Shown here in pieces: positions 5,017 to 25,586 of a stretch of DNA of 25,586 nt (positions are counted from its first letter, which is position 1; the number at the start of each line of letters is the position of its first letter). The stretch spans positions 1-25,586 of IMG/VR virus record IMGVR_UViG_3300045135_001628; one strand, 5' to 3'. The position numbers and the translations under genes were made by a program. The notes under the pieces were generated by a model. The model was not told the origin of the DNA and did no database searches. It saw only the letters and a program-made list of their open reading frames with translations. The stretch is from a virus.

Positions 5017-5024
5017 TATTTATA
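5017..5024 (-). promoter_or_regulatory. T4-type late promoter, proximal to gp18
   Basis: Plus-strand tatttata gives an exact TATAAATA on the minus strand, 20 bases upstream of the gp18 start codon. The leader would be only about a dozen bases, just enough for the GAGGT ribosome binding site. It is one of a pair in the gp17-gp18 gap. Confidence 0.75.
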
Positions 5025-5058: not shown

Positions 5059-5066
5059 TATTTATA
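5059..5066 (-). promoter_or_regulatory. T4-type late promoter, distal to gp18
   Basis: A second exact TATAAATA (minus strand) lies 42 bases further upstream in the same 87-base gap. Tandem late promoters would suit high expression of sheath and tube. A 7-bp AT-rich inverted repeat (5072-5088) overlaps the end of gene 17 just upstream of it. That repeat has no following U-tract on the mRNA strand, so I do not call it a terminator. Confidence 0.75.
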
Positions 5067-10806: not shown

Positions 10807-13800
10807 TTACAGACTGATAGTTACTTCAGCACTATCTTTGTCCAATATTGTTATTGTGTTGCCAAATCCGATAGGTGACCCAGTTGCAATAGTTGCAGCT
10901 TGAGTGATTGTTATGCCAATTAACCTATTTCCTGCACTATCGTTAATTGGAATCTCAAGACCAGTAGATGTTACTCTAGCTCCTACATAAGCTGAGTCAA
11001 TTAAGTCAAATACAAAATCACGCGTTAGTAGTGTACCTGATGAATCAGGTAATAATAAGTTATGGCTACCTGTAGAAGCACTATGAAGATAAAGATCTCC
11101 AGAGTCACTTTGGAAGTATAACTTTTCATTTACTCCTAGTTCAAAACCACGTGGTGTTAACGCAAACTTTTCTCTATCAACCCCAATTTGTTTTAGACGG
11201 AACTGCAGTTCGCCATCTTCGGTATCTGCGGTTGCATCATGAATAAATGATTGAATGGATCCGTATTCTATTTCAGAATCTGCGTCGTTTCTACCACGGA
11301 ACTCTAAATAACCAATTGCATCTGAGTCAGCAGGTGAAGAACTGTTGCGATCAAGTACTAACTTAGGACCGTATCCTGCACCAGCGTCAACATCAACAAA
11401 TTTAATCTCATCACTTGTAATTACACGAGCTCTTTCGCCAACCCAAGCTGAGTCAACAACTGAACCATCATAAGTAAGATCACCAGATAGTGTAGTGTTA
11501 CCATCAACACTCAGTCCAGTACTGTTTAATAACTGCAACTCATCATGTCTTTGTCTACTGACAATGACGAATCCACCATTACCTTTGATTGCTGTTTCGA
11601 TTAGACCGTCTTCAGTACCCTGCGTTGCATCTCTGATCTTACCGGTAACCTTAGCGTAAATCTCATCTCCGTTGGCATCGTTTTTGCCTTTAAACTGAAT
11701 CTGACCAAGATAGTCACCATCAGCAGGAGTTCCGCTGTTGCGATAGAGAATCAGTTCTGGTTCAGCTGCCGATCCAGAATCAACTGATTCAACTTGAACA
11801 CCAGTAGATGTTGTTCTGAACTTACTAACTTTGTTGTAAGTAAGAATCGTATCAGTCAGCGGATTGATTGTAGCGGCTACGTTCAGACTAGCGTCAGTGA
11901 GGAAAACCGTATCACCACCAAGAACCAAGGCACCACCAGATGTGGTATAGTACGAGTTATTACTATTATGATAGATTTGACCTTCTTCGCCAGTACCAAC
12001 ACTAATTCTGTTACCGCTACCGTCGTTTAATACGATTTTACCACCACTGACCGTCATGGTACCACCGAGTGAAGTGGTGGCTAGTGTCGTATTGGTAAAG
12101 CTTGAAGAATCACCACTTAAACCATTCACTCTTGCAATGTTCGCATCAAGTCGAGTTGCATACGCTGAGTCTGTTGACAGCTGACTTATTAAACCAGTTG
12201 TGACATTAACAGAGGTTCCCGATATGTCAGTAATGACTGCAGAGTCAGCAGTGATGTTTGTTGCAGTAAATTGGTTTATACTACCTGAGTCGTAATTAAG
12301 ACTACTACCTGAGATCTCAAAGAGTTCAGCCGAATCTCTACTATGAATTGGTGCAGAGAATGATCCACCATCTGCTGTGCTGATTGTTAAGACACCACGT
12401 TGAGAATCAAGTGAGAATCCTGTTACACCAGCGACTAATGTTGTTCCAATACTATCGATAAATCCTGATGTGTTTACCGTAATTACAGGAATTAACGTTG
12501 CTGATCCGTATACACCTGAATCAACAGTTGCTGCACGTGAAAGTGTAGATGTTGATACCGAAGTGGTTGATAACCCAGTGACAGTTAAGTTGGTCATTGT
12601 AGCCGAGTCGGCTAATAAGTTTCCAACATTCAGATCTGCTTTTGTAAAGTCAGTGGCTGATCTATTAATAACTGATGGAGGAATCGACGAGTCAAACGCC
12701 GAGTCGATCATGTTTCTAAACAGATAGTACTGATCGTTCGACGCGTCTCTAAATAGACCAGTATGTCTACGCTGAGCATCGCGATAGTAGTGACCAATGA
12801 AACCAATGTCAACTACATCTGAGACTTCATTACTATCAGCAAGATGAATCAGTGGGTCATTGATTGTCAGAGTAGAAGCAGAAACAGTTACAGTCTCACC
12901 AGCAACAGTAAGGTTACCCGAGACTCTTAAGTTTCCAGTTTCAGCCGAATCAATATCTAACTGACCAATATTAGCTGAAACATAATTTAGTGAGCTACCA
13001 GATACAGCGGTAATTACTGCAGAATCTGCGTTTAGATCATTTGTTCTTAAAACGTTATTATCAATTGTAGTAATTGATGCAGAGTCTGCAGATAACTGAC
13101 TGCTTATAATCGTTGGATAGTTTGCAGTTGTACCGGATATGTCTGTAATGACTGCCGAGTCAGCAGTAATGTTCGTAGCAGTAAACTGATTAATACTACC
13201 AGAATCGTAGTTAATGCTACTGCCGGATATGTCAGTAACTACAGCAGAATCAGCTGTAAAATTAGTGGCCTGAAGATTATCGTATCCGCCTATTGCTGTA
13301 GAGAAAGTGTTACCGTCTGCTGTAGATATTGTGATAGTTTCAGTAGAAGAATCAAATGATACTCCAGTTACACCAGCAACTAGTACCGAACCAGCAGAAT
13401 CAACTCTACCGTCGGATTGAATCCTGAGAATCGGAACTCGAGTTGAGGAACCATAAGTACCTGAGTCGACACCCGTATTGATAAGACTTAACTTATGCGA
13501 TGCTGAATCATAAGCGATACCATTAGTGGCATTTAATGATAAGCTCAGATCTGATTCGAAGTTGGCTTGTGTGTATACACTCTCAACATCAAAGGTAAAC
13601 TGACCTGTGCCTGAGTTATATGTAAGGTCTCCACCAGCAGAAAACAATCCGCGTATCTCTGATGAATCAACTGAAATATTACCAGTGCTTGTAGAATATA
13701 CAATTCCGTGGCCACCGTTGAGGTGAGCTCTTACTTCAGCGGCAGAAGGTCCAGTATAAGTTAGCTTTCCAAGGGCAGAGTCATACGTAAACGATCCATC

Positions 13801-14595
13801 ACCTCCGGCATCGACTACATTAATGTGAGCTCTGACTTCACTAGCAGATGGACCAGTATAAGTTATTTTACCACCAGCTGAATCATATGTAAGCGATCCG
13901 TCACCACCGGCGTCAACTAAGTTAATATATCCACGTATTGTGCCTCTTGATGTGGTATCACCTAAGGCAGAATCAAAACGAGCTCGTGTATAATATAAGT
14001 TATCACTTTCTTTTAGATCGTTTGTAGAATTAGCGGAAAGATCAAGTTTGGCTTTATTATTACTATTGTCTCTTACAACTAGATTTCCATTAGAGTCACT
14101 TATGGATAATGTACCAAGCTCAATAGTGCTACCTGATAAGAATAATTTACGAAACTTCTTAGATGCAGAACCAAGATCAATAGCACTGTCAGTTTGTGGT
14201 ACAATAGACACACTAAGCTGACCAAGCTCAGCATTGAAAAGATTGAGCCCACGTTCTGAGTCAAGTGAATTTTGTTCTACATAAGCAGAATCAACGAAGT
14301 TACGAGTAAGGCTTTGGCCAGTGATAAACTTTACGTAATCGGAATCAATAATTGCTTTCAGTTCGTCCGAGTCAACCGAAAGTACAATGTTATTTCCAGA
14401 AGAGTCAAAGAACTTAACGATACCATGGCTACCTACGAGGTCTCCGGATTGGTATAAGTTAGTACTAGCGTTATTAATGAGAATGTTGCCAGCAGCCCTC
14501 GCTTGCGCAGATACAACACCGGACGCAGCTTCATTAACATTTGATATTGGACGTCCAATGGAGACGCGTCTTACGAAAGTTCTTCTTGTGGACAT
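10807..14595 (-). CDS. Large repeat-containing tail or neck fibre protein (1262 aa)
   Basis: This 1262 aa virion protein is the largest in the window, rich in Ser, Asp, Ala, Thr and Gly with a recurring ADSA/DSA tripeptide. The N-terminal part has a SAIDLGSASKKFRKLFLSG module (about residue 137-155) shared with the 348 aa protein. Residues about 226-292 hold two tandem copies of VDAGGDGS-x-TYDSA-x-GK-x-TYTGPSA. The middle has repeats of SGSINQFTATNITADSAVIT about 300 residues apart. Two segments near 930-1130 share the pattern LxxxRNSxxPADxDxxGxxxFxGxNDA. Fibre function and receptor binding are inferred; no lectin or enzyme domain is recognisable. The ATG follows AAGGA at 14603-14607, overlapping the stop of the 116 aa gene. 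No in-frame break is visible. Confidence 0.82.
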   Translation of the reverse strand: MSTRRTFVRRVSIGRPISNVNEAASGVVSAQARAAGNILINNASTNLYQSGDLVGSHGIVKFFDSSGNNIVLSVDSDELKAIIDSDYVKFITGQSLTRNFVDSAYVEQNSLDSERGLNLFNAELGQLSVSIVPQTDSAIDLGSASKKFRKLFLSGSTIELGTLSISDSNGNLVVRDNSNNKAKLDLSANSTNDLKESDNLYYTRARFDSALGDTTSRGTIRGYINLVDAGGDGSLTYDSAGGKITYTGPSASEVRAHINVVDAGGDGSFTYDSALGKLTYTGPSAAEVRAHLNGGHGIVYSTSTGNISVDSSEIRGLFSAGGDLTYNSGTGQFTFDVESVYTQANFESDLSLSLNATNGIAYDSASHKLSLINTGVDSGTYGSSTRVPILRIQSDGRVDSAGSVLVAGVTGVSFDSSTETITISTADGNTFSTAIGGYDNLQATNFTADSAVVTDISGSSINYDSGSINQFTATNITADSAVITDISGTTANYPTIISSQLSADSASITTIDNNVLRTNDLNADSAVITAVSGSSLNYVSANIGQLDIDSAETGNLRVSGNLTVAGETVTVSASTLTINDPLIHLADSNEVSDVVDIGFIGHYYRDAQRRHTGLFRDASNDQYYLFRNMIDSAFDSSIPPSVINRSATDFTKADLNVGNLLADSATMTNLTVTGLSTTSVSTSTLSRAATVDSGVYGSATLIPVITVNTSGFIDSIGTTLVAGVTGFSLDSQRGVLTISTADGGSFSAPIHSRDSAELFEISGSSLNYDSGSINQFTATNITADSAVITDISGTSVNVTTGLISQLSTDSAYATRLDANIARVNGLSGDSSSFTNTTLATTSLGGTMTVSGGKIVLNDGSGNRISVGTGEEGQIYHNSNNSYYTTSGGALVLGGDTVFLTDASLNVAATINPLTDTILTYNKVSKFRTTSTGVQVESVDSGSAAEPELILYRNSGTPADGDYLGQIQFKGKNDANGDEIYAKVTGKIRDATQGTEDGLIETAIKGNGGFVIVSRQRHDELQLLNSTGLSVDGNTTLSGDLTYDGSVVDSAWVGERARVITSDEIKFVDVDAGAGYGPKLVLDRNSSSPADSDAIGYLEFRGRNDADSEIEYGSIQSFIHDATADTEDGELQFRLKQIGVDREKFALTPRGFELGVNEKLYFQSDSGDLYLHSASTGSHNLLLPDSSGTLLTRDFVFDLIDSAYVGARVTSTGLEIPINDSAGNRLIGITITQAATIATGSPIGFGNTITILDKDSAEVTISL
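12220..12317 (-). repeat. Fibre repeat copy (GSINQFTATNITADSAVI unit)
   Basis: This stretch encodes SSLNYDSGSINQFTATNITADSAVITDISGTS-like sequence and matches 13130-13227 closely at both DNA and protein level. The two copies are about 900 bases apart inside the 1262 aa gene. They look like duplicated beta-structural segments and could recombine to alter fibre length. Confidence 0.7.
13130..13227 (-). repeat. Fibre repeat copy (GSINQFTATNITADSAVI unit, second copy)
   Basis: This is the partner of 12220-12317. It encodes the same unit with only synonymous or conservative differences. A degenerate relative (NATADSAVVTDISGSSINYD-type) follows immediately downstream on the plus strand at about 13227-13270. 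Confidence 0.7.
13719..13918 (-). repeat. Tandem VDAGGDGS/TYTGPSA repeat in fibre gene
   Basis: Two head-to-tail copies of about 99 bases encode VDAGGDGS-x-TYDSA-x-GK-x-TYTGPSA-x-EVRAH. A third, diverged relative lies in the 348 aa gene at about 10338-10428. This shows that the two fibre-like proteins share modules. Confidence 0.72.
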
Positions 14596-14605
14596 TCCCC
14601 GATCC

Positions 14606-14956
14606 TTAAGTTACATTTGGCGTAACTTGGATCCGGCCTTCAAGGATTCTCTCGATAATAGTATTGTCGCTACTATCGACGTAAGAGAGTTCTACATCAT
14701 ATACGTACCGGCCTTTAGTCAACGCCGAGGTTTGTGTATTTGTTAGTTGCAAGGTGACAATACCTGACGTCGCCGGAGTGGCAACAATCGATGTGAACGC
14801 GGTTGCTTCACCGTCGCTATCACTATAGCTTCTTTTCATTTTAGCCGTAACTGTATGACCTACTAATGACTTAGCCGCACCAGTATGATCTACGAGTTCT
14901 AGCTCTATACCTACGTCACTACCTTTATCGATTGTAAATTCTTCGTACTCAGCCAC
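14606..14956 (-). CDS. Small beta-rich virion-associated protein (116 aa)
   Basis: This 116 aa protein starts with GTG at 14954-14956, with GGAG (14963-14966) six bases upstream. The sequence (FTIDKGSDVGIELELVDHTG, VGHTVTAKMKRSYSD, SGIVTLQLTNTQTSAL, GRYVYDVELSYVD, RILEGRIQVTPNVT) has alternating strands. The pattern KGSD..IELEL..  GA.KSLVGHTV.AK is like the small Ig-like/BppU-N-type domains found on phage baseplate and fibre proteins. It is first in a late transcript, followed ten bases later by the 1262 aa fibre. A connector, fibre base or decoration role is plausible. The exact function is unknown. Confidence 0.72.
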   Translation of the reverse strand: MAEYEEFTIDKGSDVGIELELVDHTGAAKSLVGHTVTAKMKRSYSDSDGEATAFTSIVATPATSGIVTLQLTNTQTSALTKGRYVYDVELSYVDSSDNTIIERILEGRIQVTPNVT

Positions 14957-15007: not shown

Positions 15008-15015
15008 TATTTATA
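15008..15015 (-). promoter_or_regulatory. T4-type late promoter upstream of the 116 aa gene and fibre gene
   Basis: Plus-strand tatttata gives exact TATAAATA on the minus strand. It overlaps the last codons of the preceding radical SAM gene (stop at 15011) and lies 52 bases upstream of the GTG at 14956. It marks the boundary between the accessory enzyme operon and the structural module. Confidence 0.75.
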
Positions 15016-16117
15016 CAAATTTACGTTTTGGGATCTTGGAATCTGCAGAAGAAACGCACGTATTTGTAATACATGGCATGGGTTTATCAAAGAGTTTGAA
15101 CCCGGTTGTGATGTTTCCTAAAGGCTCGTCAGAACAGGAATAGCTCCGTTTAATATTTCCATCAGGCTCACGTATAATAATACTACGATAGCCTGAATCA
15201 CAATGCCAACCACGAAACTTATTAAAATTAAACGTGTTGAACCTTTCAGCTTGGTCCATGTAGTACTTATTGCCTTTATCATCTTCCAACTCTACTTGCA
15301 TATGTTGCGGTATGCCAGTCTTTTCATAACGGAGGTCGAGCTCAACTTTTGGACGAGGCCTCGTGATTCGTTTTTTGACATCGGTAAATCCACGTTGAGG
15401 CATGCCGTTACGTAAGCGTTCAAGCATATCATCAGTATAACCATCAACGATAAAACTAGCAGTAGGATCAGACTGAGGTTTAAGAGTGACATTGATTCCC
15501 CTTTCATGGAAGTATATTGCGTCTTCCCAGCATTGCTCAAACTTATCCGGCAGCATAACTTGATTGATTGTAACTTGAATGTCTTGGCTTTGGCAGTATT
15601 CTAACTTGTCGGCAAACTCCGCAACTTTCTCTTGTGTATCAACGTGTTCCCTATGACACGACGCAGTGATACTTGCTCTGTTGAACTGTGAACAGATCTT
15701 GGCGTATTCTTCAAACCACTTCATCTTACGTGAGATGTTCGAAGTCATGTGTACTGAATGATAGTTACAGTTCGGAACATCATCAGCTAAGTATTGCATA
15801 ATTTCCAAGTACTGTGGATGAAACGTAGGTTCACCACCACTAAAACTAAAATGAAACGAGTTATAGCCGTTGGCACGTGATTGCCGTTTGATCTCATCGA
15901 TGGTCATAAGAATCAAATCAATCGGCCTGTGATCTTTAACTCGGCTAGACGCATAAGGCCAACAATACGAACACGAGTAATTACAGAACCGACCAAGCAA
16001 CCAACTCACCGTAAACAAATCACGATGAATCATTGTGCGTTGACCAACACTTACGATATTATCAAAGGGTATCTTTGTAAAGTCGTATTGGCTCCATTTC
16101 AAATCAGTCGTAGACAT
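15011..16117 (-). CDS. Radical SAM enzyme R6 with C-terminal cysteine-rich region
   Basis: This 368 aa protein (from the ATG at 16115-16117) has the radical SAM 4Fe-4S motif CNYSCSYC at 45-52 (C45, C49, C52), followed by FSFSGGEPTFHP, the canonical GGE motif for SAM binding. C-terminal cysteines (WHCDSG, YSCSDE, CITNTC) suggest a twitch or SPASM-type auxiliary cluster domain, common in peptide- and sugar-modifying radical SAM enzymes. It shares a GYTD-[DE]-ML phrase with R5, so the two are related. A longer reading from 16171 would overlap the upstream gene by 68 bases and is less likely: the chosen ATG lies within the VYD codons of that gene, like other junctions here. It is last gene in the operon. 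Confidence 0.87.
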   Translation of the reverse strand: MSTTDLKWSQYDFTKIPFDNIVSVGQRTMIHRDLFTVSWLLGRFCNYSCSYCWPYASSRVKDHRPIDLILMTIDEIKRQSRANGYNSFHFSFSGGEPTFHPQYLEIMQYLADDVPNCNYHSVHMTSNISRKMKWFEEYAKICSQFNRASITASCHREHVDTQEKVAEFADKLEYCQSQDIQVTINQVMLPDKFEQCWEDAIYFHERGINVTLKPQSDPTASFIVDGYTDDMLERLRNGMPQRGFTDVKKRITRPRPKVELDLRYEKTGIPQHMQVELEDDKGNKYYMDQAERFNTFNFNKFRGWHCDSGYRSIIIREPDGNIKRSYSCSDEPLGNITTGFKLFDKPMPCITNTCVSSADSKIPKRKFV

Positions 16118-16949
16118 AGTCTGCTTCACCTGTTGACCTTTCTTCATAGACTTCAATATATTTATTGACAAACGAATGTGCGATTAATTCCATTCCTTTT
16201 GCATTTGGATGCTGTTCTAATTGACTCAAATAATACTTAGGATATAGTTCATAACAAGAACTACCTCTTTGAAACAAATCTGGACCTACAACGTTATTCC
16301 ATTTTTTTATTTTATTAAAATAGTAATTTAACGGATTGTCGGATCTTACAGCCATATTTACGTTGTGTCTATTTACATGATCAAGCTTTGGTTCAAGTAT
16401 CCATTCGATTCCATTTAGAATATTAAGAGCTCTATGATGAATGATTTGCACATTTTCATTTTTACAGTATTTGTCTAAAAGATAAATGTGCCTTAGCGAC
16501 CACCGAGCAACATAACGATAAAACTCATCTTCTAAGAGTCCTACAACTTTACTACCACGTGGGTCATAACACTCAACGTGTAATTTTGCCAGCTCTCTTA
16601 AAGCAGTTTGAGCCTTCGTTCTCGCAGGGCCAAACGGTGGATCCAATTCTGGCATGTGTACATTAAAAGTAAGTTGACCGATAGGCAAATCAAAAGGTTG
16701 TAATCTCATGGCTTGAGACCACGCAACCATCACAACAATTTCTCTATCTTGATTTGATTCGATAGCATCAACTACAGCATTATGAATATAGTCATTCCCA
16801 GCTCCGCCAAGTCCTGTGTGAATGATATCCCAATCAAAAAAATCTGCAACATAATCTGGCCAGATTTTATCCATTCCAGCAGATATGTAATAATGTTCAA
16901 GCGGAGACGACCAACTATCTCCACCAGCAATTAATAATTTTTTAGTCAT
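16104..16949 (-). CDS. SGNH/GDSL-type hydrolase-like protein D
   Basis: This 281 aa protein has block I AGGDSWSSP with candidate nucleophile S12, a GGAGND segment at 48-53 (Gly and Asn oxyanion residues) and HPNAKG with H247 as candidate catalytic His. The usual Asp before the His is not clear (LEQHP). SGNH enzymes are esterases, O-acetyl transferases or deacetylases; here the substrate is unknown. The overall pattern (GGDS, GAGND, Y-LL-YCK, HPNA) pairs it with protein A rather than with B and C. It ends DYVYD, and the next gene starts within the TAT-GTC of that tail. Sampled DNA is AT-rich (about 30% GC), unlike B and C. The ATG at 16947-16949 is preferred over an in-frame TTG two codons earlier. 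Confidence 0.82.
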   Translation of the reverse strand: MTKKLLIAGGDSWSSPLEHYYISAGMDKIWPDYVADFFDWDIIHTGLGGAGNDYIHNAVVDAIESNQDREIVVMVAWSQAMRLQPFDLPIGQLTFNVHMPELDPPFGPARTKAQTALRELAKLHVECYDPRGSKVVGLLEDEFYRYVARWSLRHIYLLDKYCKNENVQIIHHRALNILNGIEWILEPKLDHVNRHNVNMAVRSDNPLNYYFNKIKKWNNVVGPDLFQRGSSCYELYPKYYLSQLEQHPNAKGMELIAHSFVNKYIEVYEERSTGEADYVYD

Positions 16950-16960
16950 AAACAAACTCT
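16942..16960 (-). repeat. 19-bp junction repeat, copy 1 (C to D)
   Basis: The plus-strand sequence ttagtcataaacaaactct is identical to 17570-17588. It contains the last codons EFVYD-stop of gene C plus the ATG of gene D. The identity suggests a duplication of hydrolase genes with their junction, or strong constraint on it. Confidence 0.85.
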
Positions 16961-17577
16961 ATATATTTACTATTGTGCAAAGGTACTTCAAAATCACCGC
17001 CTTCGTATTTTATTAAAAAGTATTCTGCTATCCAATCCTGCCCTTTTTGATTTGGATGGCCATCACCGGGAATCAAGTATGGCTCATTGGCCATCCAAGG
17101 CATATTGCTAGTTGGGTGTTGTGGACCAAAATACTCAGGATTATAATATCTGTTCTTCATTAATGGATCAGTTGAATTAAACTCTAGCTTAGTCAAAGGA
17201 GACGTAGAATGCCCTTGGTATATTGGAATATTGTGTTGTTTACAAAACTCGTTGAGCCTCCACATACAACGTAACTGATATGTTACTAACCAATCTTCTT
17301 TCCATAATCTTTTTGGACCATCATCAGGAATCCATCTGTTTGAAGAGGTCCAGAGAACCATCACGGTAATATCGCGATCAAGATTGTCAAGAACCGCATC
17401 GGTTACCGAATTACATATGTAGTCGTTTGAACCTCCCTTGTGCGCAAGATTAAGATGCTCAATACCCAACTCGGTTGCAACGAGTTCTGGCCACACCGTA
17501 ATGTTATTAGGCTCATATAATGGAAAGGCTGGGTCTGTGTAGCTGCATCCGCTAGCAATTAAAAGTTTCTTAGTCAT
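16942..17577 (-). CDS. SGNH-type hydrolase-like protein C
   Basis: This 211 aa protein starts MTKKLLIASGCSYTDPAF. Block I is SGCS instead of GDS (S12 the candidate nucleophile), followed by KGGSNDYI (Gly/Asn, 47-54), a VMVLWTSSNRW strand and DGHPNQKG with D172 and H174. It is the closest relative of protein B (same GCS block, VLWT, MCWRLN-type phrase RCMWRLN, HPNQKG-x-DWIAE). It ends EFVYD; the downstream ATG is embedded in TAT-GAC of that ending (8-base overlap). I use the ATG at 17575-17577; an upstream GTG (17592) would add five residues. Confidence 0.83.
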   Translation of the reverse strand: MTKKLLIASGCSYTDPAFPLYEPNNITVWPELVATELGIEHLNLAHKGGSNDYICNSVTDAVLDNLDRDITVMVLWTSSNRWIPDDGPKRLWKEDWLVTYQLRCMWRLNEFCKQHNIPIYQGHSTSPLTKLEFNSTDPLMKNRYYNPEYFGPQHPTSNMPWMANEPYLIPGDGHPNQKGQDWIAEYFLIKYEGGDFEVPLHNSKYIEFVYD

Positions 17578-17588
17578 AAACAAACTCT
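17570..17588 (-). repeat. 19-bp junction repeat, copy 2 (B to C)
   Basis: Identical to 16942-16960. It carries the final codons GAG TTT GTT TAT GAC TAA of gene B, with the ATG of gene C inside TAT-GAC. Confidence 0.85.
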
Positions 17589-18169
17589 GCACTGTAGTAC
17601 TGCAGTAAAAAAGTTTCAGCTATCCAATCGTGACCTTTTTGATTTGGATGAGAGTCGTTTAGAATAGTAAGTTCTTTATTGTCCATCCATATCATGTTGT
17701 CAGTAGGTGCTTGTGTAGTAAAGTAATCTTTACTAAAATATCTATTCTTAAAAATATCTTCGTTTGATGGTTGTGGATCTAACCCAGCAGTAGGACAAGA
17801 CGTGGCCGCTTGAAAGAAAGGAACCTCTTGTTGTCTAAGAAAGTAATTTAATCTCCACATACATCTTAGGTTATAAGTTAATGGATCTTCACGAAACTTT
17901 TCTTGAACTGCTGGCCATCTTGCAGAGTCAGTCCATAAGACCATCACGGTTATATTAGAATGATCCAGGACGGCATCCATTACTACGTTTGCTATATAGT
18001 CATTATCAGCATATGCTCTACCAAGACATAGTAGATTCATATCCAATTCATCGGCTACTAACTTCGGCCATGCAGTAATCCCTTCCCTGCCATATATTGG
18101 AAGATCAACATTACTGTGACTACATCCGCTGACTATTAAAAGACTCTTACTTGATACTTCTTTTCCCAT
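17570..18169 (-). CDS. SGNH-type hydrolase-like protein B
   Basis: This 199 aa protein starts MGKEVSSKSLLIVSGCSHSN with S17 the candidate nucleophile in a GCS block. It has YADNDYIAN (54-61) in place of the Gly-rich GGSND of protein C, VMVLWTDSARW, and NDSHPNQKG with D172 and H174. It is a paralog of C: RCMWRLN, HPNQKG-x-DWIAE and an EFVYD end are shared. The missing Gly in block II may weaken classical hydrolase chemistry. The start overlaps the carbamoyltransferase end by 34 bases. Confidence 0.82.
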   Translation of the reverse strand: MGKEVSSKSLLIVSGCSHSNVDLPIYGREGITAWPKLVADELDMNLLCLGRAYADNDYIANVVMDAVLDHSNITVMVLWTDSARWPAVQEKFREDPLTYNLRCMWRLNYFLRQQEVPFFQAATSCPTAGLDPQPSNEDIFKNRYFSKDYFTTQAPTDNMIWMDNKELTILNDSHPNQKGHDWIAETFLLQYYSAEFVYD

Positions 18170-19485
18170 TCTTCCGCGTGCTCTAACGTATCAACCATTG
18201 GTTCTCCTTTGATATTCAAACTTGTGTTCAATAACATTGGACAACCAGTAAGTTCATACCATTCTTCAAGGATTGGTCTAATAACCGATTGACAATCTGG
18301 TTTTACTACTTGTACTCTGGCCGTTCCATCCACGTGAGTGACGGAGTCGTAATCGTGAAGAGCCGTTGCCACAAACTGCATATACTCATTCATCGGTCCG
18401 CTAAAAAATTTGGTGGAATGTTCTTCGAGGATGGCTGGTGCAAAGGGCCTGAACCTCTGACGTCTTTTGATGTCGTTGACTGTATCCTTAATGTCCAGTC
18501 GTGGATCCGCCAAAAGACTACGATTCCCCAAAGCACGAGGGCCGAACTCAGCCCTACCGTTGGCCACGCCAGCCACCCCGTTAGCGCTAAGGTAGCTTGC
18601 AACTTCTCTCGGGTTGACATTCCGTTGTATGTTTGTTCCAAGATAAGGTCCTTTCCAATTAAGTTTACTTCCATAATGTCGAGCTGCAGCTCCAAGAGAC
18701 GATCCCGCATCACCTGGATTTGGCATAATCCAAATGTTTCTTCCTTCGTAGATCTTTGAGTTAGCTACACAGTTCAGAGCGCAGCCACCCATTAGGATAA
18801 GGTTCTTGTGTCTGCAGTGTGTATTGACTAAATCAAATAACCAAGTTTCGTATGCCCACTGAATGGATGCAGCGATATCTTCGGGTCTTCCTTGAGGTAA
18901 CTCGATTCCCTTATGACAGTTCTGTTGATATAAACCATAGAACTCTTTATAGAATCGAGGTTCACCATAAGCAGCCAAACCCATGACTATATATTCTTCT
19001 TCCATCGGTTTGTAACCAAGCCCAGCAGTTACCGCAGAGTACGCTAGGCCATAACTCATAGGATACTTCATCTCCCATGTTTTTTCAAAACTCGTGTTAC
19101 CGAATCCATCGTCCCTAACTCTGTATACTGCAGCAGTTTCTTTTTCGCCGATGGCGTCGATACAAAGTATGTCACACTCATCAAACGGTGCAGTTGCCCA
19201 TCCAGCCCAAGCGTGAGTTTCATAGTGGTTATAACATTTATTATAATCTATGTTCTTTGGTTGTGGATCCTGACCCGCTTCTTTACGTCTTTCGGCAACG
19301 CGTTCTTTATCTTCGTGACCAACAAACACAGCATCCCTACACCACCAAGGAATATGCGTAATCCATTTTTGATTCTTTACTCTAGTTGAACGTTCAGCAT
19401 GATGAGCTGTTAAAATCTCACCATCTTTAATCAAACACCACGCGGCGTCATGGCTGCCTTCACTAATTCCTAGTATCTTACTCAT
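18136..19485 (-). CDS. O-carbamoyltransferase, NodU/CmcH/TobZ family
   Basis: This 449 aa enzyme would transfer a carbamoyl group from carbamoyl phosphate, via carbamoyl-AMP, to a hydroxyl of a sugar or other small molecule. The N-terminal Kae1-like domain opens ILGISEGSHDAAWCLI (4-19) and has NHYETHAWAG (86-95) with metal-binding H87 and H91, then a CIDAIGEKET strand and GGCALNCVANSK (233-244). The C-terminal YrdC-like part has GRAEFGPRALGNRS (310-323), FRPFAPAIL (345-353) and NTSLNIKGEPMV near the end. It is somewhat shorter than TobZ-like enzymes and stops soon after the VDT-x-E motif, losing the usual last helix. Its ATG overlaps the R5 end by 8 bases. It gives the best hint about the operon: a hydroxylated metabolite or glycan is probably carbamoylated. 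Confidence 0.92.
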   Translation of the reverse strand: MSKILGISEGSHDAAWCLIKDGEILTAHHAERSTRVKNQKWITHIPWWCRDAVFVGHEDKERVAERRKEAGQDPQPKNIDYNKCYNHYETHAWAGWATAPFDECDILCIDAIGEKETAAVYRVRDDGFGNTSFEKTWEMKYPMSYGLAYSAVTAGLGYKPMEEEYIVMGLAAYGEPRFYKEFYGLYQQNCHKGIELPQGRPEDIAASIQWAYETWLFDLVNTHCRHKNLILMGGCALNCVANSKIYEGRNIWIMPNPGDAGSSLGAAARHYGSKLNWKGPYLGTNIQRNVNPREVASYLSANGVAGVANGRAEFGPRALGNRSLLADPRLDIKDTVNDIKRRQRFRPFAPAILEEHSTKFFSGPMNEYMQFVATALHDYDSVTHVDGTARVQVVKPDCQSVIRPILEEWYELTGCPMLLNTSLNIKGEPMVDTLEHAEEWEKKYQVRVF

Positions 19486-20422
19486 CGTGTTTTTCTGCTA
19501 AAGCATCGTGCAAGCAACCACAGTAACTTGCTGGGCATATGATGTCCTCATTAAACAGTCTTACGTCTCTCTTATGAATGTTTCCAAGATAATACTTTGG
19601 ATCTCTGGTTTTTGCTAACTCGTAACACGGCCATACAGATCCATCCAAATGTATTATAATTCTTTTGTTTCCAGCTGAACACGACCAAAATTGATATGAG
19701 TTCTCATGATTAATTATCTTTTCTTGAAAGTTTACTGGTACACCGTCGTAGTGCAACCGTATATTCCAATCAACATCAGGCTTGTTATCTAAAACTTTTT
19801 CGTGTATCTCTTTATGTGACTTTACTATATAGTCTAGCATCTCATCAGTATATCCATCAATCATTTCCGTACCATCAAAGTTTTTTCTCAGTACCTTGAT
19901 TGTTGTATACGCGTTCAGTTGTTTTGTTCTCTCGTATAACTTACGTGATACGTCAAAGTACGGAGGATCTAACATATAGTTGGCAGTTACGGCAAACCCA
20001 GCCTCTGATACTGTTTTTACGTTGTCATAAAACAACTCAGGATCGCACTGCGCTGCGTGGTGGCACATGTTCAATACTACGTTATTCTGCAACCCTAGTT
20101 GAGAGAATCTCTTCCACCAGTTACGAGTTCTACTTCCGTTCGTATCAATCTCAATTACGATCTGAGGATACTTCTTAATAGCTGTTCTTAAAAAGTGTGG
20201 TAGCTTTGGCCACATAGTAGTCTCACCACCAGAGATATTTACAAATACGTCACTGTGTTTTTCATAGATTAAGTCAATTAAATAAATGGCGTCGTCAAAG
20301 TCAGGAAACGGTACCTTTCCATCGTGTAAGTTCTCAGGACAGTACCAACAAGCTTGGTTACACATTGAAGTAAAAGACCAAGCTATGTAAGCTCTGTTTG
20401 GATTCCTACCTGATACTCTCAT
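19478..20422 (-). CDS. Radical SAM enzyme R5 with auxiliary cysteines
   Basis: This 314 aa protein has CNQACWYC at 21-28 (C21, C25, C28) and VNISGGETTMWP as the GGE motif, then IDTNGSRTRNWW. C-terminal cysteines (WSCSAG, WPCYEL, ICPASYCGC) suggest a second cluster of twitch/SPASM type. It shares GYTDEML and overall layout with R6. ATG at 20420-20422 overlaps the R4 stop (ATGA); a GTG two codons upstream is possible but unnecessary. Reaction unknown. Confidence 0.88.
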   Translation of the reverse strand: MRVSGRNPNRAYIAWSFTSMCNQACWYCPENLHDGKVPFPDFDDAIYLIDLIYEKHSDVFVNISGGETTMWPKLPHFLRTAIKKYPQIVIEIDTNGSRTRNWWKRFSQLGLQNNVVLNMCHHAAQCDPELFYDNVKTVSEAGFAVTANYMLDPPYFDVSRKLYERTKQLNAYTTIKVLRKNFDGTEMIDGYTDEMLDYIVKSHKEIHEKVLDNKPDVDWNIRLHYDGVPVNFQEKIINHENSYQFWSCSAGNKRIIIHLDGSVWPCYELAKTRDPKYYLGNIHKRDVRLFNEDIICPASYCGCLHDALAEKHDE

Positions 20423-21486
20423 GTCCACTGTGCCACGAAAGGATCAAACCCTTTATTACATTTCAGCCCACACGTTCTCATTCTACCTTGACCAACCCCA
20501 TGAACTTCCCAGCTTTTCTCAACCGCTGAAAAGAACTCCCCTTTGAGGATTGATTGTAAAGGAGTATAGTGTACGTTGATCTTCTCAAAGCCACCGGTTT
20601 TCTTAATGATTTGGTATTCTTGAGAGTCTTCCATGGGTCTCCACCACTTATATACTTGCCCTGCCAACCAACAACACGGAAACACGAGTCCTTCGGCAGA
20701 GACATAAATTTCTTTTTTACTAACGCACTTTGGTTGTATTTCAGCAACATCAATAAACTTATCCATTGAGCCGTATCGTTCGATGATATTATTATAGTCT
20801 TTATCAATTGCTTTATTACGATACTTGGGATCTTGTGGCGGAGCAAGTCTCTTCGCGTCCTTTCCTCTAAATACCGCTTGGTGGTCATCTTTCTTCCTTA
20901 GGTTAGCCGTATTGATATATCTGCCAGACTTCTTTACGATAAACTCCTTTACGCCTAAGATCTTTGAAAAAGTTTCAGCTTGACTCACTTGATGTTCGTT
21001 ATAGTTAAACACAAGGAACGTCCACTTGGCGTGACCACCAGCATCGCAAAAAGCAGCCATGTTTTCTTCAACGTGGTCCCACTTTACTCCTTGACGATAA
21101 AAGTGGTTAGTGTCTTGTAGTCCATCAACTGAAAAGTTAACAAACGTAACTACCTTGGCCAACCTCTCCCACCACTCAGGCTTACGAGCTCCGCCGTTAG
21201 TGGTCACAAACATGTTGATCTTAGGGTTACACTCGCGTACGTACTCTGCCATCTCCAACATATCAGGAGCGAAGATCGGATCTCCGTGGTTTCCACAAAA
21301 GTAAAACGTTTCGAGTTCAGATAAGAACTTACGTGAGAACGCTTTCTTAAAACCATCGATGGTCATAGACTCGTCTTTGAGATACTGATTTACTTCTCCA
21401 CCGTTTTTATTCCTATCACACATAGGACAAGACGCTTGGCACATCTGAGTCGGTTCAAAGTGAACCATCTTTACACTATCATACAT
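20419..21486 (-). CDS. Radical SAM enzyme R4 (GNxGDP subfamily, twitch-type)
   Basis: This 355 aa protein has CQASCPMC at 16-23 (C16, C20, C23) for the SAM cluster. In place of GGEP it has FCGNHGDPIFAPD, followed by TTNGGARKPEWW and FSVDGLQDTNHFYRQGV. C-terminal cysteines (PKCV, VFPCCW, TCGLKC) suggest an auxiliary cluster. It is a clear paralog of R2 (same blocks throughout). Its ATG lies inside the DYV-stop end of R3 (8-base overlap). Substrate unknown. Confidence 0.88.
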   Translation of the reverse strand: MYDSVKMVHFEPTQMCQASCPMCDRNKNGGEVNQYLKDESMTIDGFKKAFSRKFLSELETFYFCGNHGDPIFAPDMLEMAEYVRECNPKINMFVTTNGGARKPEWWERLAKVVTFVNFSVDGLQDTNHFYRQGVKWDHVEENMAAFCDAGGHAKWTFLVFNYNEHQVSQAETFSKILGVKEFIVKKSGRYINTANLRKKDDHQAVFRGKDAKRLAPPQDPKYRNKAIDKDYNNIIERYGSMDKFIDVAEIQPKCVSKKEIYVSAEGLVFPCCWLAGQVYKWWRPMEDSQEYQIIKKTGGFEKINVHYTPLQSILKGEFFSAVEKSWEVHGVGQGRMRTCGLKCNKGFDPFVAQWT

Positions 21487-22387
21487 AATCTTTACAGTTC
21501 TTACAAAGGTCTATTGGTTCATAAAAAAGTTCGGAAAAGAAACTACCATGGAGTATCTCATCATAACTGTATTTATGCAAGTTATTATCAAGGTCAAAAA
21601 GAGTTAGTTCTTTATACATTTCAGGATGCGTGGCCACAGATGGCATATAACAACACTGCCATATATTACCCCAAGCATCAATTTGAGCTGCTCTTCTTTT
21701 TCTCCATTTGCAACGAGCGTCATCGTTTGGTTCTTCAGGATACCAAAACTCTTTAACACACCACTCGTATCTACGGTCTACTGATGTTCTCTTTACGGTG
21801 CACTCTTTAAAATCTTTATATTGTTTTTGGTATATCTCAGGTAAGTAAGATTCGTTTACCACAAACTTTGTGAAACCCATTGCACGTGCTCTAATACTAG
21901 CTTCTTCTAACTCAAAGGCATTATGTTCAAATACAATATACTTCCACCTTGCATTACCACCTGATCGAATAAACGACTGTGCGTTTTCTAAAACTCTGTT
22001 TATGTTTACACCACGGCGATACACATGGTTTGTATGGATTCCATCAATAGCAAACGTGACTCTGCTACTCTTAAACTTCTTTAGTATTTTGGAAAGGTCT
22101 GACCACCAAGCCTTATCTCTGGCTCCACCGTTGGTACTTGCATCAAAGGTTACGTGGTTAGGTATAGAGTCTATGATATCTAAAGCATAGGGATGCATGG
22201 TAAAGTCACCATACGCACCATTAAAGTATACGACCTTTACGTCATCAAAGTTAATCTTTTGAAATATCTTAGGTGACAGATGAACTAGCTCAACACAAGC
22301 TTCACCACCATCATTATTGCGAATACATCCACCACAGTGGCTGTTGCAATAAGTCGTAATATCAATTTGGAGTTCTTCCACCAACAT
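21479..22387 (-). CDS. Radical SAM enzyme R3 (NGAYGDF variant, twitch-type)
   Basis: This 302 aa protein has CNSHCGGC at 14-21 (C14, C18, C21). The SAM-binding motif is VYFNGAYGDFTMHP, diverged from GGEP and from the GDP form of R2 and R4. STNGGARDKAWW and FAIDGIHTNHVYRRGV follow, as in R2 and R4. C-terminal cysteines (ARCKW, WQCCYM, LCKNCKDYV) suggest an auxiliary cluster. The family is therefore the same as R2/R4 but divergent and shorter. It starts within the end of R2 (26-base overlap). Its last residues are DYV, reminiscent of the tails of R1 and the SGNH proteins. Confidence 0.87.
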   Translation of the reverse strand: MLVEELQIDITTYCNSHCGGCIRNNDGGEACVELVHLSPKIFQKINFDDVKVVYFNGAYGDFTMHPYALDIIDSIPNHVTFDASTNGGARDKAWWSDLSKILKKFKSSRVTFAIDGIHTNHVYRRGVNINRVLENAQSFIRSGGNARWKYIVFEHNAFELEEASIRARAMGFTKFVVNESYLPEIYQKQYKDFKECTVKRTSVDRRYEWCVKEFWYPEEPNDDARCKWRKRRAAQIDAWGNIWQCCYMPSVATHPEMYKELTLFDLDNNLHKYSYDEILHGSFFSELFYEPIDLCKNCKDYV

Positions 22388-23384
22388 ATTGAAGTTCTAC
22401 GGTATCTTGTTTGGTATTACATTTAGCTGCGCAAATATATGGTGTATCATCGGTATTCCATCTCTCGTGAAGGTTACTAAACCACGACATTGCAGCATAT
22501 AGTCCATATTTCTTTGCGTCGTTCTCCGGTTCTACAACAAGAGATCTGATATCCAACCTTTCTTCCATAGATATATTTTGACTGCTAACACTGGACGTAT
22601 GCGCCCAGCAACATGGGAATACATGCCCTCTAGCCGAGATAAAGATCTCCCGATTAACGACACACTTGGGTAAGATTCGAAAGGCACGTCTTTCCTCCGA
22701 TGAATATGGATTGTTTACTACTTCACTCTGGTATTCTTTTTGCTTCGGTGGCTTTAAGACTTCTTGTTCTCTTCCTCTCCAGTAAGTCTGCCAAGCAGGT
22801 CGTTCTTTATCGTAACGGTTGGTTGTCTTTGGTCTGAACTCCACAAATCCCAGTTCTTGTGATAGCCTCTCTGCCAATTGGATTTGATGTTCGTTGTGCT
22901 CAAAGACCAGATAGTCCCACTTTGCTTTTCCTCCGGCATCTATAAAGCTCCTTACGTTATTCATTATATTATACCACACAACACCCTTTCTGTAAATATG
23001 GTTTGTGTCTTCTAAACCATCAATTGAAAAGGTGACGTGGTTTACTACTGAAGCTAACTCGGCCCACCACTCTGGCTTCTTAGCTCCACCGTTCGTATTC
23101 ATTGAGAGATATATGTTTGGGTTACACTCACGGAAGTACTTAAAGATATCAATACAGTCAGGTGCTAACATCGGATCGCCAAGATTACCACACATGTACA
23201 TTTCATTTAGTTCTTCAATAAAACTTTTTTCAAATATTCCCTTTACATCTGACAAAGATAATGATATATTACCAACCCTAGGATTCAATTCACCGTCAAG
23301 TGTAACACGGTCACACATGGGACACATAGCCTGACAGAGTTCAGTTGGCTCAATGTGTAGCTTTCTTATGTCGTAGCCATTCAT
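22362..23384 (-). CDS. Radical SAM enzyme R2 (GNxGDP subfamily, twitch-type)
   Basis: This 340 aa protein (from ATG 23382-23384) opens MNGYDIRKLHIEPTELCQAM, with C17, C21 and C24 as CQAMCPMC. MCGNLGDPMLAPD replaces GGEP, then MNTNGGAKKPEWW and FSIDGLEDTNHIYRKGV. C-terminal cysteines (PKCV, VFPCCW, CAAKC) suggest an auxiliary cluster. R4 is its nearest relative. A longer reading from an upstream GTG (23423) is unlikely because R4 aligns from the chosen ATG. It overlaps the PP-loop gene by 35 bases. Confidence 0.88.
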   Translation of the reverse strand: MNGYDIRKLHIEPTELCQAMCPMCDRVTLDGELNPRVGNISLSLSDVKGIFEKSFIEELNEMYMCGNLGDPMLAPDCIDIFKYFRECNPNIYLSMNTNGGAKKPEWWAELASVVNHVTFSIDGLEDTNHIYRKGVVWYNIMNNVRSFIDAGGKAKWDYLVFEHNEHQIQLAERLSQELGFVEFRPKTTNRYDKERPAWQTYWRGREQEVLKPPKQKEYQSEVVNNPYSSEERRAFRILPKCVVNREIFISARGHVFPCCWAHTSSVSSQNISMEERLDIRSLVVEPENDAKKYGLYAAMSWFSNLHERWNTDDTPYICAAKCNTKQDTVELQYVGGRTPN

Positions 23385-24090
23385 TGAACGCCCAGTCCCT
23401 TTCCATACACCACCAACACTCACCGCATTCTTGAGTGAATCCTTCAGTCATATAGTTCCACCCCTCACAAGACCGAGTCAGCGGAAGTAAAGTTTCGATC
23501 AAGTTATACGATTCGTACAGTTCAGCAACGTGACCCTTGTGGTGTTGAATAAAAGGACAGCAGTGCATTATGTTTCTTTTCCAGTCATCATCCACTTCTG
23601 ATCTATTATGTCTGACTCTCCAATCTCTATGTGTCTCTCGACAGTCCCACACTCTTTCGCCAAACACAGGTGACGATCCCCAGTATTCCTCACCAATCTT
23701 AGTTGATGGATTGGCAGTTACTCCGTTGAATACTTGAGTGTATTCGCCAATCGTAGCTACCGTTTCATCGATGAGATTCTCTTGGTAGTCAACGTAGTTG
23801 TTTGCGTTCTTATTATTTGGTTTACCACCAGGATCTTCACACATCATAGACTGTAACGGAGCAAACTTGACGTTCTTCCATTGGTCTTGCATCCAATCAT
23901 ATACTTGTTGAGCGTGATAGTTTTGCCAATTACGTACGCCATGAACCACGGTGATTGGCCACACGGTAAGTGGCTTCTTTGCTTTAGTCCATTCATTACA
24001 TATCATCCACAAAAGTAAAGCGCTGTCTGCACCTCCAGATAAACGAATAATTACATTTTCAGTTTTTACTGGTACCTCAATCGTAGACAT
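23350..24090 (-). CDS. QueC-like PP-loop ATPase with four-cysteine site
   Basis: This 246 aa protein has the PP-loop SGGADS (18-23) of N-type ATP pyrophosphatases, which adenylate a carboxyl or carbonyl group. At its C-terminus C208, C222, C225 and C228 form C-x13-C-x2-C-x2-C, similar in layout to the zinc site of QueC (7-cyano-7-deazaguanine synthase, C-x8-C-x2-C-x2-C). Between them the sequence (GVTANPSTKIGEEYWG, HCCPF) is not clearly QueC. I see no QueD, QueE or FolE partner in the window: none of the radical SAM motifs here is the CX14CX2C of QueE. An amidating or nitrile-type ligation on another substrate is possible. Start ATG 24088-24090 lies within the YVYD codons of protein A; an upstream GTG (24102) is less likely. 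Confidence 0.8.
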   Translation of the reverse strand: MSTIEVPVKTENVIIRLSGGADSALLLWMICNEWTKAKKPLTVWPITVVHGVRNWQNYHAQQVYDWMQDQWKNVKFAPLQSMMCEDPGGKPNNKNANNYVDYQENLIDETVATIGEYTQVFNGVTANPSTKIGEEYWGSSPVFGERVWDCRETHRDWRVRHNRSEVDDDWKRNIMHCCPFIQHHKGHVAELYESYNLIETLLPLTRSCEGWNYMTEGFTQECGECWWCMERDWAFNEWLRHKKATH

Positions 24091-24895
24091 AATTATCTTC
24101 ACCTCTTTTCCATATCGGATTTTTAAGTTTTGGTCTTATTCCATCATTCATAAATTTATGAATTAATGTAGCTAAAGCCTTACAGCCTTCTGCGTTTGGA
24201 TGAGTATTTTCTTTCGATATAGTTAAACCCTCTTGAATAATATAATCAAATACTGTAAAATCAAAACCCATAAATGATTTACTATCTTCTAAATCTTTTT
24301 TATATCCTTTTCTGATTGGACAATTATTTGGATTTAGTCTTATAACATCCTCGACTTCAAATGATCTATCTATGTTTCTAATAATATTATCTCCATTAAG
24401 CATAGCAAATATACAACCACTATAATATTTTATTTTCATCTTTTTGCAATAATCTTCTAAAAGATACATTCTTCTATATGCATGTGTTAAAATATTACTA
24501 TACATTTGTTCAGGATCGTCAAGTTTTCTTCTACATGCATCCATTACAATCTGAGATAATTCTGAAAGCTCTCCCGGCCCTTCATCTATACTTTGAATCA
24601 AATGGTATTCTGGTGTTAGTTGTCTGCATGTAGTATCAAAGAAGTTTAAACGTTGGACATCAGACCACAATACCACAACGGTAATTTCATTGTTTGGATC
24701 ACGACTATATTCATTTATTTTATCGTACACTTTATTAAAAATCCAATCATTACCCGCTCCAGCCATTGAAACATTAATAAATGAATCAAATTGACCCATA
24801 TCACATAAATGATCTGGCCAGCCTGGCCAGCCCCAGACCGATCTTGGATAAGTGTAACTATCACCGCCGCAGATAAGTACTTTCTTAGTAGACAT
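24077..24895 (-). CDS. SGNH/GDSL-type hydrolase-like protein A
   Basis: This 272 aa protein has block I ICGGDSYTYP (S13), AGAGNDWI (45-52), a VVVLWSDVQRL strand and NTHPNAEG with H232. It pairs with protein D (GGDS, GAGND, YLLEDYCK, HPNA), not with B and C. The DNA is strikingly AT-rich, sampled lines being 20-30% GC against about 43% in the neighbouring PP-loop gene. It ends DNYVYD. The start is taken at ATG 24893-24895, embedded in the DYVY-stop end of R1; a TTG two codons earlier is less likely. Catalytic activity is not certain because the Asp of the triad is not obvious (ENTHP). Confidence 0.82.
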   Translation of the reverse strand: MSTKKVLICGGDSYTYPRSVWGWPGWPDHLCDMGQFDSFINVSMAGAGNDWIFNKVYDKINEYSRDPNNEITVVVLWSDVQRLNFFDTTCRQLTPEYHLIQSIDEGPGELSELSQIVMDACRRKLDDPEQMYSNILTHAYRRMYLLEDYCKKMKIKYYSGCIFAMLNGDNIIRNIDRSFEVEDVIRLNPNNCPIRKGYKKDLEDSKSFMGFDFTVFDYIIQEGLTISKENTHPNAEGCKALATLIHKFMNDGIRPKLKNPIWKRGEDNYVYD

Positions 24896-25586
24896 AATCA
24901 AAAATCTTTGGAGCTAACTCACTCGCGTCCCTATCATAAAGTTGATCTTGTAGTTTTACGATCTCTTTGAAAGTTTCTTCTGGTATAGTGCGTTTACCTT
25001 TGAGCCTTAACTTAAACTCTTTAGTAAACTCAGTATTAGCAGTTTTATTATATAACGTTTCTTTTGTATCTTCTGATAAGTTTACAACATCCAATCCTTC
25101 GGGCCAGTGAACAAAAGTGGGTCTGTACTTTACTTCGATTTGATACTTACGTTCAAGTACTTTCTTTAGTAGCCCTAACTCAAAATCAATTTCATTCATA
25201 TAGAAAGCGTGGTATGCAGTCGTAGTACATACGAACAATAACTTTTCCACTTTATTAGTTCGCTGTAACATACTGTGAATGTTGTTTATGACTTGATCGT
25301 AGTCACCGCCTTGCCTGAAGTAGTTAAACAACTTAGTGGTACCATCCATACTTACGGTGATGTCGGCTCTCTTAAAGTGTTCCCATAACTCACAGATGTC
25401 GTAACTCTTAAACTTAGTCAACGACATATTAGTGTTATAAACCAGAGTAATCTTTGAGGTGTCAATGTTTGGATCTTGAATCATTCGCTCAAGAAAGCGA
25501 TACATCTCAACGTGAAAGAAAGGTTCACCACCAGAGAACTCAATACGTTCTACTGTGGGGAGTACGTTCTCAAATAGATGATCGAT
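24885..25586 (-). CDS. Radical SAM enzyme R1, C-terminal part (runs off right edge)
   Basis: The reading frame is open from the window edge to the stop at 24885 (233 codons visible). Just before the first internal Met it reads VERIEFSGGEPFFHVEMYRF, carrying the FSGGEP SAM-binding motif. The CX3CX2C motif must lie beyond the window. Further on are LVYNTNMSL (strand 3) and ITVSMDGTTKLFNYFRQGGDYDQV (strand 4 region in outline), as in other radical SAM enzymes. No cysteine-rich tail is seen, in contrast to R2-R6; only one Cys cluster-free C-terminal stretch rich in Lys and Glu follows. It ends KIFDYVY, a near match of the VYD endings, overlapping gene A by 11 bases. Confidence 0.88.
   Translation of the reverse strand: MDHLFENVLPTVERIEFSGGEPFFHVEMYRFLERMIQDPNIDTSKITLVYNTNMSLTKFKSYDICELWEHFKRADITVSMDGTTKLFNYFRQGGDYDQVINNIHSMLQRTNKVEKLLFVCTTTAYHAFYMNEIDFELGLLKKVLERKYQIEVKYRPTFVHWPEGLDVVNLSEDTKETLYNKTANTEFTKEFKLRLKGKRTIPEETFKEIVKLQDQLYDRDASELAPKIFDYVY

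Follow-up and report, generated by a model that had tools for sequence, protein, structure and literature searches.

A conserved, probably late operon of radical SAM, carbamoyltransferase and SGNH-fold genes beside the fibre genes of a T4-like marine phage, and its possible role in glycan tailoring

The operon and its gene content

The IMG/VR contig IMGVR_UViG_3300045135_001628, whose 25,586 bases are called the window throughout, holds the fibre-proximal half of a longer operon. Between positions 15011 and 25586 we find twelve minus-strand open reading frames (ORFs), and at the likely starts all neighbouring pairs overlap by 4-35 nucleotides (nt) (Table 1). When gene starts are picked with relatives as the guide, successive overlaps measure 11, 14, 35, 26, 8, 4, 8, 34, 8, 8, and 14 nt from right to left; for g1 the likely start is the ATG at 16117, the ORF list having a TTG at 16171. 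The operon encodes six radical SAM (rSAM) proteins, of which one is incomplete at the edge of the contig, as well as four SGNH-fold proteins, a carbamoyltransferase of the NodU/TobZ type, and a PP-loop ATPase. The description given by an earlier, sequence-only reading, a run of twelve overlapping genes without any gene for a non-enzyme, was borne out on both counts. Overlap by itself is weak evidence of linkage; structural genes of the same phage overlap too. The same gene order is found in related contigs, and the arrangement is therefore not a matter of chance.

Five of the rSAM proteins contain the CxxxCxxC motif, the sixth (g12) being cut by the contig end, and the Pfam cut-off for Radical_SAM (PF04055) is passed by g1, g6, g7, and g9. 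The incomplete g12 scored 132 bits against NF033640 (cut-off 170) and covers profile positions 166-370 of 398, and the full-length twitch-type proteins of a 123-kb relative pass that cut-off with 199-400 bits. In g5 both Pfam domain cut-offs are passed, and the motifs HxxxH and GRxEFGPRALGNRSLLADPR, read off the sequence, are intact.

Downstream of the operon lies a series of genes for fibre assembly, fibres, neck, tail sheath stabilizer, terminase, and tail sheath, which agrees with the earlier assignment to a T4-like phage. The nearest terminase is that of Phage C48C1 (68.8%), a phage without a recorded host. The large protein encoded at 10807..14595 has no PHROG match and is similar to the tail-fibre-like protein at 9720-10766 (E 6e-17).

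Table 1. Genes and other features of the operon and its fibre-side border
Feature	Position	Strand	Assignment and evidence
g1	15011..16117	-	rSAM_B, SPASM-like C-terminus; PF04055 49.2 bits, CNYSCSYC
g2	16104..16949	-	predicted SGNH fold; BLASTP paralogue of g3/g4/g11; family fold from AlphaFold2/Foldseek on g3
g3	16942..17577	-	predicted SGNH fold; AlphaFold2 model; invariant Ser12, His174-Pro175
g4	17570..18169	-	predicted SGNH fold; 48% identity to g3 (tandem duplication)
g5	18136..19485	-	NodU/TobZ-type carbamoyltransferase; PF02543 116 bits, PF16861 155 bits, phrog_1601 E 5e-82
g6	19478..20428	-	rSAM with SPASM domain; PF04055 52.1 bits, PF13186 25.1 bits; GTG start, or ATG 20422
g7	20419..21486	-	rSAM_A, CQASCPMC, C-terminal cysteines; PF04055 46.9 bits
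g8	21479..22387	-	diverged rSAM_A with SPASM, CNSHCGGC; PF13186 22.4 bits (above cut-off), PF04055 18.7 bits (below)
g9	22362..23384	-	rSAM_A, CQAMCPMC, 44% identity to g7; likely start ATG 23384
g10	23350..24090	-	PP-loop ATPase, SGGADS; C-terminal CGECWWC resembles QueC motif; QueC family PF06508 25.4 bits
g11	24077..24895	-	predicted SGNH fold; BLASTP to g2, E 2e-21
g12	24885..25586	-	twitch-domain rSAM, NF033640-type; CxxxCxxC N-terminus beyond contig
fibre assembly protein	14606..14956	-	phrog_1084/phrog_3304; operon boundary
large fibre-like protein	10807..14595	-	directly downstream; candidate target; identity suggested by position, size, and resemblance to the 9720-10766 protein
TATAAATA	15008..15015	-	overlaps end of g1; starts fibre unit

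Gene order in related contigs

Relatives were gathered by viral scans with the carbamoyltransferase and with the PP-loop protein, and whole operons were taken from six contigs. The window starts inside their series. As the earlier reading had supposed, the operon runs past the right edge: relatives add about ten genes upstream, among them four to seven rSAM genes, together with a divergent block. The complete operon begins with four to six rSAM genes, mostly of the twitch type, which are followed by PLP302 and then by OG180. Two further rSAM genes, a variable slot, the PP-loop protein, and two or three rSAM_A genes come next, and the series ends with the carbamoyltransferase, one to five SGNH genes, and rSAM_B, ahead of fibre assembly, fibre, gp13, and gp14. 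The rSAM_B gene (g1 in the window) is the final enzyme gene before the fibre unit in all relatives, and in these relatives of the window the island adjoins fibre assembly and fibre genes. The conserved backbone can be written as rSAM_C-PLP302-OG180-...-PPloop-rSAM_A-CT-SGNH-rSAM_B-fibre assembly, where CT is the carbamoyltransferase. Radical_SAM matches reach 12 per contig, one listed match in each of two contigs (G005 and G007) being the second piece of the same gene. PLP302 (302 amino acids (aa), DGAW and SLSK motifs, weak Pyridoxal_deC match) is read as a putative fold-type I pyridoxal phosphate (PLP) enzyme, and OG180 (180 aa, HxD...H) as a candidate 2-oxoglutarate (2OG)-oxygenase-like protein; searching PDB with profiles built on the alignments of these two and of the PP-loop protein returned nothing informative.

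Decorating genes are exchanged at fixed positions while the backbone is constant. The variable slot may hold an SGNH gene, an AGAT-like gene (assigned by eye and by profile similarity to the amidinotransferases of Campylobacter phages CP220 and CPt10), a 175-aa sulfotransferase-like gene (assigned by eye), an FkbM methyltransferase gene (PF05050 43.7 bits), or a gene for a 475-aa HAD and NTP_transferase protein; in one related island (G002) a 387-aa AGAT-like gene occupies the position of g11. The fibre genes may also change, those of G003 differing while the enzyme backbone stays. The divergent block contains glycosyltransferase-like and methyltransferase-like genes; some relatives have a further two rSAM genes there, and G005 has a sulfotransferase (PF13469 57.7 bits). 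Matches to the glycosyltransferase phrog_1962 occur inside islands, and the 123-kb relative (G001) encodes UDP-galactopyranose mutase, two GT25 proteins, a nucleotide-sugar epimerase, and UDP-glucose dehydrogenase. In this same genome a C-5 cytosine DNA methylase gene (L114 9208-10395) adjoins the UDP-glucose dehydrogenase and epimerase genes. A membrane-like segment was detected in only 2 of 161 island proteins, both of them 54-aa ORFs.

The SGNH-fold and PP-loop proteins

Scans of NCBIfam and PHROG with g2, g3, g4, and g11, and of Pfam with the first three, returned no match. The AlphaFold2 model of g3 (pLDDT 90) nevertheless matches TesA and GDSL esterases in PDB (Foldseek E 2e-5, probability 1.00), and Ser12 and His174-Pro175 are invariant across a 62-sequence alignment. 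The fold, the catalytic Ser, and the Asp-x-x-His that define the SGNH superfamily are all present. On this model and on paralogy, the four proteins are assigned to an SGNH-fold family, which upholds their earlier description as SGNH-like. The last codons of SGNH genes in the clade read [FY][VIT]Y[DE]-stop, with TATGA(C) overlapping the ATG that follows (16104-16112, 16942-16950, 17570-17578, and 24077-24085 in the window), and SGNH genes outside the clade do not have this tail. We considered the C-terminal [FY]VYD tail as a peptide tag and rejected it: 31 of 32 tails sit where the stop overlaps the ATG of the next gene. The tail is mainly an effect of overlap, though residues preceding the overlap are conserved as well. 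A common junction of SGNH genes could ease tandem duplication and cassette swapping.

The model of g10 (pLDDT 76) is nearest to TilS/TtuA/NcsA (Foldseek E 4e-6), and its SGGADS loop is invariant in nine sequences, so that both the loop and the fold of a PP-loop ATPase are present. Of the earlier description as a QueC-like ATPase, the PP-loop ATPase with a weak QueC match stood and QueC itself did not, g10 scoring 16.9 bits against a cut-off of 150.3 for the QueC equivalog TIGR00364. On that score g10 is not QueC, and the deazaguanine reading was rejected. Pfam and PHROG library scans of the window genes found no QueD, QueE, FolE, or transglycosylase. The sequence "GGVWK" that opens several ORFs is probably the C-terminus of the PP-loop protein in another reading frame, resulting from an over-long start.

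A late promoter at the head of the operon in relatives

The T4-type late promoter sequence TATAAATA occurs five times in the window, always on the coding strand. The enzyme operon, as far as it lies in the window, has no copy apart from the one that overlaps the end of g1. In the relatives G001, G004, and G003 the sequence precedes the first enzyme gene by 40, 37, and 42 nt, respectively, and one-base variants precede the operon in G005 and G006. In multi-rSAM directons of all lineages it was present within 150 nt upstream in 8 of 60 cases, compared with 5 of 1,200 internal control windows; the cyanophage-type late motif CTAAATA showed no enrichment. The divergent start of the island in Pelagibacter phage Mosig has the sequence on each strand, and CPt10 has it 34 nt before the first rSAM gene of the module. 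From the motif we infer that, in T4-like clades, expression of the island is late and goes along with that of virion genes; most other lineages lack the motif. Two tandem copies of the sequence precede the tail sheath gene of the window (5017-5024 and 5059-5066), and a pair at the same spacing occurs in the 123-kb relative (89133 and 89175).

Co-occurrence and distribution

In 61 PLP302 neighbourhoods of at least 12 kb, the median number of rSAM genes within 10 kb is eight, with at least five in 53 loci and at least three in 58. Loci retrieved with rSAM_A have a median of 7 rSAM genes, and their commonest upstream neighbour is MT211, a 211-aa methyltransferase-like gene (36/78). An SGNH gene adjoins the carbamoyltransferase in 68 of 80 loci, whereas any rSAM gene is nearby in only 30 of 60; the carbamoyltransferase-SGNH pair is tighter and wider than its link to the rSAM genes and is separable from them. 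The claim of the earlier reading that the genes serve one shared pathway gains support from the conserved order and from the number of rSAM genes around PLP302, with the reservation that this pair is separable. Its proposed check of co-occurrence and order in viral contigs found the same order in relatives, which speaks against random cargo. A gene like MT211 also stands directly before rSAM_A in contigs seemingly unrelated to T4-like phages (L219-L285), where it is often preceded by a repeat-containing glycosyltransferase-like protein.

Relatives of g7 and g9 are encoded in at least 589 viral contig stretches, and the group has 3 weak matches among 50,697 phage records. For PLP302 there are 174 relatives in viral contigs; none was found by tblastn in phage records or in a scan of genomes of 85,000 species, and a profile search revealed a distant relative in phage Mosig. 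A genome scan with rSAM_A returned 11 contigs of metagenome-assembled genomes (MAGs). Several of these look viral, and there is therefore no bacterial parent cluster that could be used for reading the substrate. Three MAG contigs labelled Acidimicrobiaceae, Rickettsiales, and Chloroflexi (L197, L198, and L199) have runs of about 8 to 14 rSAM genes and are probably phage contigs binned with bacteria; L199 also carries PLP302, GT229, MT141, MT211, GT197, and GT222. Among cultured phages, the Vibrio jumbo phage K566 (L286, 9543-16285) has four twitch-type rSAM genes, three annotated as such and one as hypothetical, and offers a tractable model.

A late glycan-tailoring pathway and its alternatives

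The operon is real, conserved, and unusual. Tentatively, we prefer to see in the host-recognition region of this T4-like marine phage a glycan-tailoring pathway that is cytosolic and expressed late, with a product that would most likely reside on the virion. Glycosyltransferases encoded beyond the contig would build or extend a sugar chain. SPASM and twitch rSAM enzymes, the PLP enzyme, the 2OG-oxygenase-like protein, and a PP-loop ligase would then remodel its sugars (by epimerising, oxidising, aminating, or amidating them), and the carbamoyltransferase, the SGNH proteins, and the swappable sulfo-, methyl-, and amidinotransferases would decorate the glycan. The product would be attached to the virion, probably to fibres, before lysis, yielding adhesins with a variable chemical "serotype".

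Here we infer a sugar substrate, the reactions, and the virion as target. The cytosolic glycan pathway is suggested by the accompanying sugar chemistry, the near-lack of membrane segments, and a swapping of decorating enzymes on a constant backbone that appears to resemble that of antigen loci. Twitch rSAM enzymes such as BtrN act on sugars, so that by analogy a sugar may reasonably be proposed as the substrate of the rSAM enzymes. Late timing and the fibre neighbourhood give the virion a moderate preference over the host envelope, the target being probably virion adhesins and less probably the envelope. The virion or surface target of the earlier reading is plausible, and the late promoter strengthens it. 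Several points weigh against our preference. Sequence does not reveal what an rSAM enzyme acts on, and peptides are the substrates of many SPASM enzymes. The analysis identified neither a carrier nor a sugar ligase nor a site of protein glycosylation, the glycosyltransferase assignments in the islands are weak or motif-based (E 4e-7 and 5e-5), and no glycosyltransferase is found among the genes of the window itself. The late motif is mostly absent outside T4-like clades, and for related islands modification of the host O-chain has been preferred (PMC7029224).

The same tailoring could act instead on the envelope of the infected cell (the O-chain of lipopolysaccharide (LPS) or a capsule), excluding co-infecting phages or stopping progeny from sticking to debris. 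This is the published interpretation for glycosyltransferases of the pelagimyophage host recognition cluster (PMC7029224), and the LPS-type GT25, UDP-galactopyranose mutase, and UDP-glucose dehydrogenase of the 123-kb relative would suit it. A late promoter is, however, ill suited to early superinfection exclusion, and the island has no flippase, polymerase, ligase, or membrane acyltransferase and almost no protein with a membrane segment, so that we regard an envelope target as possible but less probable. It is unlikely that the SPASM and twitch rSAM enzymes crosslink or epimerise fibre proteins or a peptide, either directly or in the manner of ribosomally synthesised and post-translationally modified peptides. 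Most of what is known of those families comes from peptide maturation, the NCBIfam matches include many peptide maturases (all far below cut-offs), and fibre genes adjoin; yet carbamoyltransferase, glycosyltransferases, sulfotransferase, FkbM, and NTP transferase belong mainly to sugar and small-molecule tailoring, and in G003 different fibre genes accompany an unchanged enzyme backbone. A precursor gene is absent from the window, where all genes overlap and intergenic space is zero, though a precursor may be encoded elsewhere.

The exclusively soluble enzymes of the island, with the amidinotransferase-like and PLP enzymes of some relatives that fit amino-sugar or amino-acid-like products, would also agree with a secreted or intracellular metabolite or cofactor for late infection, but such a pathway leaves the steady placement among late structural genes and beside fibres unexplained, and we hold it to be quite improbable. 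Carbamoylated 5-hydroxymethylcytosine is known from phages, and a QueC-like protein beside a carbamoyltransferase brings to mind hypermodified DNA bases (deazaguanine, or a carbamoylated or glycosylated base). The score of g10 far below the QueC cut-off, the TilS/TtuA-like model, the lack of other deazaguanine genes in the window, and the late structural location weaken the nucleotide target that the earlier reading had entertained and make it very improbable. That the genes are unlinked cargo of a hypervariable region, each with its own role, is scarcely credible: content between backbone genes is mosaic and the carbamoyltransferase-SGNH pair occurs also without rSAM genes, but backbone order is conserved and a median of eight rSAM genes surrounds PLP302.

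If the glycan-tailoring product decorates virions, phage-host recognition would gain a new layer. Radical SAM enzymes are sensitive to oxygen and seldom occur in isolated phages; the operons, almost missing from the phage records, are present in hundreds of contigs of uncultured viruses. A bolder proposition, which we consider doubtful, is that many uncultured marine phages possess an undescribed multi-step radical pathway, with about a dozen rSAM enzymes encoded by a single late operon. It would equip the phages' own adhesins with a variable carbamoylated, sulfated, or methylated glycan (or glyco-peptide), and so be for viruses what O-antigen serotypes are for bacteria.

Comparison with known systems

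The earlier statement that no system of this composition has been described was too strong: precedents exist in Campylobacter phages CP220 and CPt10 and in the pelagimyophage host recognition cluster. CP220 and CPt10 encode 11 and 12 rSAM proteins (Timms et al. 2010, PMC2853527), five of the genes forming with an amidinotransferase an interchangeable module (PMC2853527). These phages are also T4-like, and their contiguous five-rSAM module lies near baseplate genes, in CP220 with two nucleotide-diphospho-sugar transferases alongside. With six rSAM genes in the window and up to 12 Radical_SAM matches in relatives, the marine operon likewise brings at least five rSAM genes together in one contiguous module. 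The rSAM_A profile matches CP220 proteins (E 3e-35, 1e-37, and 7e-34), and the AGAT profile matches the CP220/CPt10 amidinotransferases (E 9e-14 and 3e-21). The Campylobacter phages differ in having no carbamoyltransferase or SGNH match within the scanned stretches and fewer rSAM genes in one run, and in their amidinotransferase, which only some marine islands possess and the window lacks. The rSAM module has been an unsolved oddity of Campylobacter phages since 2010.

The pelagimyophage host recognition cluster is a hypervariable island between VrlC and gp14, with fibres, glycosyltransferases, and rSAM cassettes (PMC7029224), and like the island studied here it lies upstream of the neck gene gp14 with tail fibres. 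On the far side of the island, which the window contig ends before, G001 has large late structural-type genes without a match to VrlC. Mosig EXVC030M (MT647606) has homologues of PLP302, rSAM_A, rSAM_B, SGNH, carbamoyltransferase, MT211, GT222, and GT197 (E 1e-7 to 3e-78) but differs in gene order, in having three annotated MoaA-like proteins and not about a dozen, and in its extra nitroreductases, sugar aminotransferase, and desaturase. Its Mosig_00086 (L287 11389-12129), annotated as hypothetical, is an SGNH-family member by profile (E 2e-56). Pelagibacter phage HTVC008M has rSAM_B, methyltransferase, carbamoyltransferase, and PP-loop genes in a row with a glycosyltransferase and UDP-glucose dehydrogenase; its PP-loop protein, however, is of the NAD synthase family (PF02540 172 bits), and that stretch has one rSAM gene only. 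Compared with NodU/TobZ O-carbamoyltransferases, g5 shares both Pfam domains and the intact motifs, but has 449 aa as against the 556 positions of the NodU model, on which it scores 128 bits (cut-off 1000). Marine virome surveys list rSAM genes as loose auxiliary genes (PMC7150976, PMC9301287).

Both the genome region and the notion of an rSAM module were therefore already known, from the Campylobacter phages in 2010 and the pelagimyophages in 2020. The open-access literature searched did not show the long shared backbone or its breadth, nor the SGNH assignment or the late promoter. These four elements are new here, the scale of the backbone being at least 589 viral contigs versus 3 weak matches in 50,697 phage records, and because homologues exist in a cultured Pelagibacter phage and a late promoter is present, the system is directly testable.

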